Shown piece by piece: positions 8,013 through 52,274 of a stretch of 64,000 nucleotides of DNA. Numbering within the stretch: the first letter of the stretch is position 1; each line of letters starts with the position of its first letter. Source of the DNA: a sulfur-oxidizing endosymbiont of Gigantopelta aegis (GTDB taxonomy: Bacteria; Pseudomonadota; Gammaproteobacteria; GRL18); contig NZ_JAEHGE010000002.1 of assembly GCF_016097415.1 (NCBI RefSeq), positions 1 to 64,000 of the forward strand, in the 5' to 3' direction. A program made the position numbers and the translations under genes. Below the pieces are notes generated by a model. It worked only from the letters and a program-made list of their open reading frames with translations. It was not told the origin of the DNA and did not search any database.

Positions 8013-9887
8013 TTTAGGTCACACTTTTTATCTTTTAGTTGTTTTAAGTTGTGTGTCCGGTTAAGTATAGCCACATTAATTTGCCAGTATTTCTGATGCG
8101 GATATTGGCCTAGTTTCGCATATAAAAGACTTTAATAAAGCGGTGGATGAATCCATTATTCTAAAAAATGGAGTGCAATGCTGCTAGCGGTGAGTCATGC
8201 AGAACAGCAGAGTGTATTGATGGAAAATTTTTCCCAACAATACAGTCTAACTCAGTCAATTAATCATTCGCTACAAATTACTTGGCTTAATAAAACCTAT
8301 GAGGTGCAATTATTTCCACTCAATGATATGGGAAGCAAAGAAAACACCATGACTTTGGTGATCAGTGATATTACCCAAGAATTAGAAGCAATTGATATCA
8401 TGACTTTAAAAACATTTAATACGGGCTTATTAGGCTTATTGATATCAGAGATATTATTGTTTGCTATTTTGTGGCTGCCTATGCGAAAAATACTCACACA
8501 TAGTGAAAGTACTGCCCTTATTTGCTAAAAGTTCTTATGCAGATATTCGAACACAATTAAACTTTAAACATAATAAATTATTGTTTGATGATGAGATAGG
8601 CGTGCTATCCAGTTCAGTGATTGATTTATCTGAGCAATTGGAGGGCTTGCAAACGCAAGTTGAGCAAAAACACAGGGGCTGGTATTACGTTCTAATGAGT
8701 TGGCAAAAGAGAAGGAGTTTATTTCAGGCCTATTGGAAACAACTCAGGCTATTATTCTTACTCAGGACAAAGATGGAAAAATAAAAAGGCTTAATTCTAA
8801 AGGTATGATTCTAATTGCCTATGAATCAGATGATATTATTGATACTTCTTTTGATGATATCCTGGTTAAGAATGACTTAAAACGTGAGGTTGTTGAAAAA
8901 CTCAATGAAATTCGTTGTGGTGAACGTGCTCATTTTCATCATGAAGCTGAAATATATAGCCCTAAAGCTTCCCGTTGCAGTGTGTCATGGTATCACTCAT
9001 TACTTTCTATTTATGGTGATGACGGAACGGTTATGTTGTCAGTTGGACTGGATATCACTGAGCGTAAAGTGGCACAGGAGCAGTTGGAATGGATTGCAGA
9101 TCATGACCCCTTAACCGGATTGGTCAATCGCCGTCGTTTTCAAATAGATATGGAACGTATATTATCTATTACTTGTCAATATGAAAAAAGTGGTGCTTTA
9201 TTGTATTTCGATGTCGATCATTTTAAATATTTGAATGATAGTCAAGGGCATCAAGCCGGCGATAAAATGCTCAAGCTTATTTCTGAGAGGCTTGAATCGA
9301 TTATTAAACGACCTGACTTAATTGCTCGTTTAGGGGTGATGAGTTTGCAATTGTCATTGAAGATGCGGATGAGGCTGTGGCAATAAATGTTGCCCAAAGA
9401 ATTATTGATAATGTACGTTCTATAGAGACCGGTATCTTAGGAGGGACGCATAAGATTTCAGTGAGTATAGGTATTGTTATTTTCCCGGATGAAGGCTTCA
9501 ATATTCCAGATCTAATGGCTAATGCCGATTTGGCTATGTATCAGGCAAAAGATAAAAAACGTGGGAGTTACCACATTTTTTCTTCTAGTGATAAAGGTCG
9601 TGAGCATGCTAATCAATTGATGCAAAGAAAAGAGCGTATCGAGCGAGCCATTGCAGAAGATCGCTTTACACTCTATTTTCAACCTATTTTGAATATAAAA
9701 ACAGGTGAAATAAAACGTTACGAAACATTGATTCGGATGTTGGAAAAAGATGGTACAGTACAAGCCCCTGACTTTTTTATTCCAGAAGCAGAGCAATTGG
9801 GCATTATTGATGAAATTGATCAATTAGTGATGAGGAAAGCCATAAAAGCATTGGGTGGTTTCGTTGAGGAAGGTCTGGATATTAGTT

Positions 9888-10642
9888 CTTGATTACCCAA
9901 TTCAGTTTCAAGAAGGTTATAGTTTATTTGAGCTTTTTAATGATTATGGCACTGACAAACAGTGCCGACAAGCCTTATTTAAATGGAAATTTCCTGATGG
10001 ATTTGTTTGCCCAGAGTGTGGCAATAAGACTTATTGCACTCTAGAACATCGCCATCTTTATCAGTGCCACCATTGTCATCATCAGACATCAGCAACCTGT
10101 GGGACAATATTTGATAGTACCAAACTGCCTTTATCTAAGTGGTTTTTAGCGATTCATCTTATGACTCAATTGAAGACAGCGGTTTCAGCATTAGAATTAA
10201 AGAGACAGCTTAAAGGTAAGCTACAATACAGCCTGGAGTATGAAACAAAAGATCATGCAGGTTATGAAAGAACGTGATGACAGTAAACCTTTATCAGGCA
10301 TCATTCAAATTGATGATGCCTACTGGGGGGTGGTGAGCACAGAGGCGGCTCCAGAGGTCGTGGTTCAGAAAATAAAACACCGTTCGTTGCAGCCGTTTCT
10401 ACTAATGAAGATGGACACCCGATTGCAATGAATTTAAATGTGCTTAAAGGGTTTAAATCCAGTGAAATAAAACGATGGGCACAAACTCATTTAACACCTG
10501 GAAGTACTGTTTACTCAGATGGGTTAAATTGTTTTCCTGCGGTTAAAGAAGCTGACTGTAAGCATGTTCCAATCGTCACGGGTGGTGGTGCGGCAAGTGT
10601 TGATAAAATTGAGTTTATCTGGGTTAACACTATGATATCAAG
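9888..10642 (+). mobile_element. IS1595-family remnant with both ends trimmed inside
   Basis: A degenerate copy of the intact element at 60075-61115. It is flanked by a perfect 8-bp target duplication TATTAGTT (9880-9887 and 10643-10650), the expected length for IS1595. The first 11-12 bases (CTTGATTACCCA) and the last 6 (ATCAAG) of the element survive, but the rest of the left non-coding end plus the first transposase codons, and about 240 bases at the 3' end, are deleted. The remaining transposase frame is further broken by an added A near 10214 and two added G near 10330. It sits in the EAL part of the GGDEF/EAL gene. Confidence 0.92.
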
Positions 10643-11149
10643 TATTAGTTTGTCAGTGAATTTATCAGGCAAAGCAATGGACAATCCTGAAATTTCAGTG
10701 CTAATACGGTCATTACTAAAAGAGCATGATGTAGAACCATCACGACTTATTATTGAAGTGACTGAGACGGCAGCGGTGTCAGACATTGTTGGTGCAGAGC
10801 GCTTAATGTATGAAATTAAAGATTTGGGCTGTCATTTTGCCCTGGATGATTTTGGGGTAGGTTTTTCCTCTTTTTTCTATTTAAAACAATTGCCTGTTGA
10901 TTATGTGAAATTGGATGGAATGTTTATTCGTCAATTGCCTTATAGCGATGAAGATCAGGTTTTTGTAAAAGCGCTTAATGAAATGGCACACGGTTTAGGC
11001 AAGCAGACAGTTGCTGAGTTTGTTGAGAGTCAGGATATTTTAGATATGCTGGTCAAATATGATGTGGATTATGCACAAGGGTATTTTATTGGTAAGCCAC
11101 TGCCAGATATTTTGAGGCAAAATGAAGAAGCTTAGCCAAGAAACTTAAA

Positions 11150-11325
11150 CCTAAAATAATCAGTTGAATCGTAGCGAGAGCGACTTAGGTGCTGAAGATT
11201 AAGGGTTTTACAGGTTATTTTGGCTTTATTCGTAGTCACCCTACGGGTGAAGTCAAAATATTCTGGAAAATCCTTAAGATTCAGTGCATAAGGCGGTCGC
11301 AGTAGGTTCAACTGATTTTTTTAGG
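11150..11325. mobile_element. 176-bp MITE, copy A
   Basis: Terminal inverted repeats of 19 bp: CCTAAAATAATCAGTTGAA at the left and the complement of CCTAAAAAAATCAGTTGAA at the right. A perfect 5-bp direct repeat TTAAA flanks it (11145-11149, 11326-11330). The interior is an imperfect long palindrome, so RNA from it would fold into one long hairpin. Copy B at 52003-52178 has the same 176-bp length and one base difference (A/G in the TCAAAATRTTC segment). It lies 14 bases after the EAL pseudogene stop. No coding capacity; transposition would need a transposase in trans. Confidence 0.9.
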
Positions 11326-11361
11326 TTAAAATAATCATGAAATGAGAACATGAAAGTGAGC

Positions 11362-51931: not shown

Positions 51932-52002
51932 TTTATATTACCAGTCCATTCTTTATTATCTATTTTCTCTATTATAGGTCTTATTCGTTATTTATCCATC
52001 AT

Positions 52003-52178
52003 CCTAAAATAATCAGTTGAATCGTAGCGAGAGCGACTTAGGTGCTGAAGATTAAGGGTTTTACAGGTTATTTTGGCTTTATTCGTAGTCACCCTACGGG
52101 TGAAGTCAAAATGTTCTGGAAAATCCTTAAGATTCAGTGCATAAGGCGGTCGCAGTAGGTTCAACTGATTTTTTTAGG
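52003..52178. mobile_element. 176-bp MITE, copy B
   Basis: Same length, ends and interior palindrome as copy A at 11150-11325, with one base difference. It has its own perfect 5-bp target duplication ATCAT (51998-52002, 52179-52183). Lies in the promoter-side gap between the lipoprotein gene and uup, about 96 bases before the uup start. Confidence 0.92.
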
Positions 52179-52274
52179 ATCATAGCGCTTATGAACAAAC
52201 CTTCCATAAAGGGGGTTTTTACTATATTCTAAGCGCAGTTTTTTCCCTGCATTATTAGCTGAAGTGAGTTTTTT

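Follow-up and report, generated by a model that had tools for sequence, protein, structure and literature searches.

A 176-bp MITE with IS1380-type ends and a strand-specific hairpin fold, probably under selection, in Gammaproteobacteria

Element copies in the window

The window, i.e. the whole stretch of 64,000 nucleotides that was analysed, contains two copies of a 176-bp element, both in sense orientation on the + strand. Copy 1 is located at 11150..11325 and scores 201 bits on the + strand and 104.5 bits on the − strand with the covariance model described below, while copy 2 is located at 52003..52178 and scores 200.3 bits. The two copies are 99.43% identical, which corresponds to a single base difference, and each is flanked by its own perfect 5-bp target-site duplication: TTAAA for copy 1 (11145..11149 on the left, 11326..11330 on the right) and ATCAT for copy 2 (51998..52002 and 52179..52183). 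Coordinates, base difference and duplications agree with the initial annotation of this DNA.

The left terminal inverted repeat of copy 1, CCTAAAATAATCAGTTGAA (11150..11168, + strand), is common to the 1695-bp insertion sequences (ISs) of IS1380 type described below. The right repeat (11307..11325) reads CCTAAAAAAATCAGTTGAA on the − strand, so that the 19-bp ends differ by one mismatch instead of the two given before. The interior (11169..11306, + strand) pairs with the ends into a single long hairpin and includes the conserved internal-loop bases GTA/AGTA and GA/GA. A length of 176 bp, the absence of a transposase gene and 19-bp inverted ends with one mismatch characterise the element as a MITE. 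Its ends also contain words similar to GTTRRRY/RYYYAAC, for which identity as an integron attC site was considered; this was dropped, as the words stand in reverse order and the element generates duplications.

To the left of copy 1, a GGDEF-EAL gene (8700-11135) is interrupted by a degraded IS1595-type transposase. The zinc ribbon of this transposase lies at 9855-10274 and its DDE remnant is joined in frame to the EAL part (10428-11135).

Copies in the source genome and target preference

The source genome is 4.91 Mb in size, consists of 11 contigs and features 70 matches to the element core (38-base core pattern, ≤ 3 mismatches), with identities of about 95–100% among these copies. The earlier count of two copies is thus correct for the window, where both are real, and an undercount for the genome. 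In total, 82 complete or partial copies were tabulated, and duplications were scored on the 59 full-length ones. The 5-bp duplication was perfect at 53 of these, one base off at four and missing at two. Sequences found include TTTAA, TTAAA, ATTAT, TTCAA and ATAAT. Genome-wide counting and tabulation of flanking 5-mers had been suggested with the initial annotation, and the outcome upholds its view of a recently moved MITE that makes 5-bp duplications. Comparison of occupied and empty sites, also suggested there, gave a partial answer: the element is absent from both orthologous loci in those congeners for which the locus could be located, and divergence of the left flanks prevents alignment of the empty target.

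In all 53 perfect duplications of the source genome, the second base is T and the fourth is A. The same rule holds for 43/43 perfect duplications from other genomes, giving 96/96 in total. Copies of near-complete length were found outside predicted reading frames in 64 of 65 cases in the source genome. Several copies adjoin a stop codon, which is expected because the target contains TAA. As read directly from the sequence, the end of the element closes all three frames inside 18 bases.

A second subfamily of the element is present in the source genome at three loci (L169, L170 and L161; C1:1.91, 3.00 and 2.09 Mb, respectively). Its ends are CCTAGAAACCTCAGTTGAA and it shares about 83–86% identity with the window copies. 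At a further locus (L150, C1:848000-853500), an insertion of about 4 kb divides an element copy into halves that overlap by an apparent 8 bp (query 105-112), which suggests that this copy was interrupted by another IS. Carriage of the element by plasmids, phages or viral contigs yielded no match for the queries tried.

IS1380-type partner

With the 19-bp end as pattern, a scan of 84,980 species genomes yielded 68 stretches, four of which (L049, L060, L068 and L095) contain an element of 1695 bp whose ends are those of the MITE. These ISs have the ends CCTAAAAAAATCAGTTRARC and an open frame of 505–517 amino acids, and both IS and MITE ends follow the scheme CCTA...CAGTT. The encoded transposase matches Pfam DDE_Tnp_1_4 (9e-19, above the Pfam cut-off), and its best NCBIfam model is IS1380 (5.7e-38), with 130.6 bits being below the curated cut-off of 180. 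A transposase acting from outside the window had been postulated, along with a search for its gene between matching ends; genes of this kind were found in these ISs of other genomes, and the type can now be given as IS1380-like, with the same ends and 5-bp duplications.

Partner ISs were detected in 8 of 24 genomes of the family and in 7 of 16 distant carriers, and intact or near-intact relatives are present in congeners and some of the distant carriers. Ends of IS and element agree within single genomes: in G181, the 18 bases of the IS end CCTAGATTAATCAGTTGA are letter for letter those of the element's left end, and in G073 and G211 GCAGTT replaces TCAGTT in IS and element alike. The IS copy in G004 is flanked by the duplication TTAAT; several other ISs in draft assemblies lack a matching duplication. 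The source genome itself has two decayed IS1380-type copies of 1.68 kb with the ends CCTATAAAAATCAGTT and CCTAAAAACCGCAGT and the duplications TTTAA and TTTAT. As both are frameshifted and partner ISs were detected in only part of the carriers, the enzyme responsible for the recent burst of the source genome was not caught.

The two decayed copies (C1:879484-880978 and C1:3492802-3494300) are 99.35% identical over 1.69 kb. Both have several broken frames, apparently a common frameshift and separate 5-bp duplications, and were possibly moved in trans after decay. In the congener G002, 39 matches to the IS1380-type transposase were found, nearly all of them fragmentary and located at the ends of contigs, which looks as though the assembly had been disrupted by a high-copy IS. 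In Methylococcaceae, other miniature elements (L055, L061, L088 and L069) have the same CCTAAAAAAATCAGTTGA ends and unrelated hairpin interiors, which contain TTCGTCCTGAGC/TCGAAGGA-like palindromes.

End identity, duplications and the partner ISs identify the element as a MITE that is probably mobilised in trans by IS1380-type transposases.

Distribution in Gammaproteobacteria

The covariance model was built from the alignment of the element and run on 369 genomes drawn from the Gammaproteobacteria. Full-length matches with more than 100 bits were obtained in 19 of these genomes, belonging to 14 gammaproteobacterial families, and were nearly always 174–178 bp in length. Weaker matches to the model include other elements that have only the ends in common. 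Distant copies keep the CCTA ends, and 8 of 16 show a perfect 5-bp duplication.

A known RNA family was rejected, since all Rfam matches to the element (eukaryotic miRNA hairpins) stayed far below the gathering scores. A longer conserved gene or RNA family had been named beforehand as a finding that would speak against a new MITE; the element does not belong to a longer gene, and forms by itself a conserved, structured-RNA-like family.

Strand-specific fold and covariation

Folding of the + strand of the element yielded −90.6 kcal/mol compared to a shuffle mean of −37.3 (z −13.3, 0 of 200 shuffles). The − strand yielded −58.3 kcal/mol (z −9.3), so that the + strand fold is much stronger. The sense strand was the more stable one in 44/44 representatives and 16/16 distant copies (60/60 in total), with the orientation of the representatives assigned by homology and not by stability. 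The self-folding interior described in the initial annotation is hence confirmed far beyond shuffles, although the fold appears to be strand-specific and selected and thus more than a palindrome by-product.

Copies from relatives stay within 174–178 bp in nearly all cases, down to about 66% identity. In the main alignment (37 sequences, unforced MAFFT), 96.2% of cells are paired, and shifting the partner by one base reduces pairing to 44–49%. Changes on both sides were observed for 33 of 65 pairs, compared to 13.3 in shuffles, and none of 500 shuffles reached the observed value. A wider MAFFT alignment of 26 sequences, including the distant copies, showed covariation for 43 of 59 predicted pairs.

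On the tree of the 37 sequences, 75 changes led from Watson–Crick to G-U pairs, 24 to A-C and 36 to other Watson–Crick pairs. Recent variants in the source genome comprise 11 changes to G-U and 17 to A-C, and differ in this from the cross-species changes (75:24; Fisher p = 5e-4). Mutation bias therefore fails to explain the G-U excess, and a mere palindrome gives no reason for a G-U preference on one strand. Unlike those of the source genome, within-genome variants of two relatives lean to G-U, with the small counts of 13 changes from Watson–Crick to G-U and 3 to A-C. Among the recent source-genome copies there is no sign of selection on the fold; these copies may be too young to show it.

Particular G-U pairs (columns 81-102, 82-101, 66-117 and 43-140) are kept in 34–35 of the 37 sequences. 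Conservation of the unpaired internal-loop bases (5' GTA and GA, 3' AGTA) amounts to 0.92–1.0, compared to an average of 0.77 for paired columns. Such a combination of conserved loops and covarying stems is the hallmark of a structured nucleic acid, as predicted here. Covariation and the G-U/A-C asymmetry indicate that selection has kept the predicted sense-strand hairpin by way of compensatory and G-U changes. Taken together, the element is very probably an IS1380-type MITE whose fold is selected on one strand.

Proposed role and alternative explanations

According to the proposed mechanism, an IS1380-type DDE transposase would recognise the ends of the element in trans and make a 5-bp staggered cut at NTNAN sites. 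Once transcribed, the sense strand is predicted to form a single hairpin that spans about 70 base pairs and has conserved internal loops, and the element has spread through many gammaproteobacterial families while selection very probably kept the pairing. Most likely, a folded read-through transcript would act in cis by processing or insulating, in an RNase III-type or terminator-like manner. Processing or insulation by folded transcripts has been described for Correia and ERIC elements (PMC2229807, PMC10969869). Such a fold would lower the cost of insertion, allowing folded lineages to keep propagating. The unbiased orientation of copies towards neighbouring genes and the lack of a terminator-like site at copy 1 weigh against this cis role. 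While the identity of the element is well supported, the task of the hairpin is what we infer, and the whole chain from an IS1380-mobilised MITE via a selected RNA hairpin to a cis role that makes insertions tolerable has about an even chance of being right. Somewhat short of that, yet still plausible, is a reading as a class-wide mobile element with a structured non-coding RNA cargo required for its own success, i.e. a 'transposable RNA gene' with a hairpin of about 70 bp and protein-binding-like internal loops, spread by IS1380 transposases.

The selected object could also be the single-stranded DNA hairpin of one strand, serving mobility as in REPINs or the ends of IS200/IS605. DNA hairpins also tolerate G-T and tandem G-A mismatches. 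In the source genome, the orientation of copies is unbiased with respect to adjacent genes (37 vs 29 facing genes, p 0.39), which fits a role in mobility, and the hairpins of REPINs, which are moved by single-strand transposases, show compensatory changes (PMC3116915). However, the clean 5-bp duplications and the DDE-type partner point to double-strand transposition, and orientation was also unbiased between the replication arms (about 11:11 and 18:13, judged by eye from a rough GC skew of sampled loci). Single-stranded DNA instead of RNA is thus the less likely object of selection, and we regard this explanation as unlikely.

If the object is RNA, the main alternative to a cis role is a trans-acting small RNA that is bound by a protein of the host or the element via the GUA/AGUA and GA/GA loops and affects, for example, transposase expression. 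The invariant loop bases and a length that is tightly kept at about 176 bp in the different families would suit such an RNA, and MITE-derived small RNAs were reported in Coxiella (PMC10969869). A search for an internal promoter or a simple terminator at copy 1 yielded nothing beyond shuffles, though, so that transcripts would depend on the insertion site, and no protein partner is known. A trans-acting role is therefore quite unlikely.

Finally, the element might be an ordinary IS1380-derived MITE whose hairpin is a by-product of palindromic origin, kept by template-switch correction during replication and devoid of an RNA role. Long stem-loops are commonly predicted for MITE transcripts (PMC2229807, PMC10969869), and neither the pairing of source-genome variants nor copy orientation is biased, which speaks for a by-product. 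Template-switch correction restores Watson–Crick symmetry, however, and can yield neither the one-strand G-U excess nor the widely kept G-U pairs nor nearly invariant unpaired loop bases; the variant spectrum of the source genome, rich in G>A (26, compared to 9 C>T), would create A-C instead of G-U. Already strained by the asymmetry, the conserved G-U pairs and the invariant loops, this explanation is rather improbable.

Comparison with known hairpin elements

Bacterial MITEs are usually viewed as transposase-binding ends with a disposable interior, whereas the interior of this element, in at least 14 families, appears to evolve in the manner of a functional RNA. The old question of whether MITE hairpins act or are by-products has become testable, as both a comparative data set and a named transposase partner now exist. 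The novelty lies in the strand-specific conservation, demonstrated for many families, of a full-length predicted hairpin whose internal loops are invariant. The IS1380-type partner of a hairpin MITE and the absence from Rfam are also new. Searching the open literature, with ISfinder and subscription papers being outside the search, gave no account of a comparable MITE linked to IS1380.

Members of the IS1380 family such as ISEcp1, which makes 5-bp duplications (PMC2887853), share with the element the CCTA ends and duplications of this length, and with its partner IS the DDE_Tnp_1_4 transposase. In contrast, the element comprises only 176 bp without a transposase gene, and the partner transposase scores below the NCBIfam cut-off.

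Like REPINs of the REP-RAYT system, the element is a small, palindromic piece of mobile DNA whose hairpin shows compensatory changes (PMC3116915). REPINs use single-strand RAYT transposases, whereas the element has a DDE-type partner and 5-bp duplications, and its hairpin is longer and internally looped. Identity as a REPIN, i.e. moved by a RAYT and with a REP core at both ends, is ruled out by the DDE-type IS ends and the 5-bp duplications.

ERIC, Correia/NEMIS, YPAL and CIR are bacterial MITEs of 100–200 bp that are intergenic, occur in many copies and feature inverted ends and stem-loop transcripts (PMC2229807). The element resembles them in size, in its many copies, in intergenic location, in its inverted ends and in the predicted stem-loop. 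It differs in the sequence of the ends, in the 5-bp target NTNAN instead of TA and in a fold backed by covariation and G-U asymmetry in the families compared. CIR is the nearest described case of a conserved MITE RNA structure, although it has two arms and, unlike the element, lacks inverted ends. The element works like the known hairpin MITEs and belongs among them.
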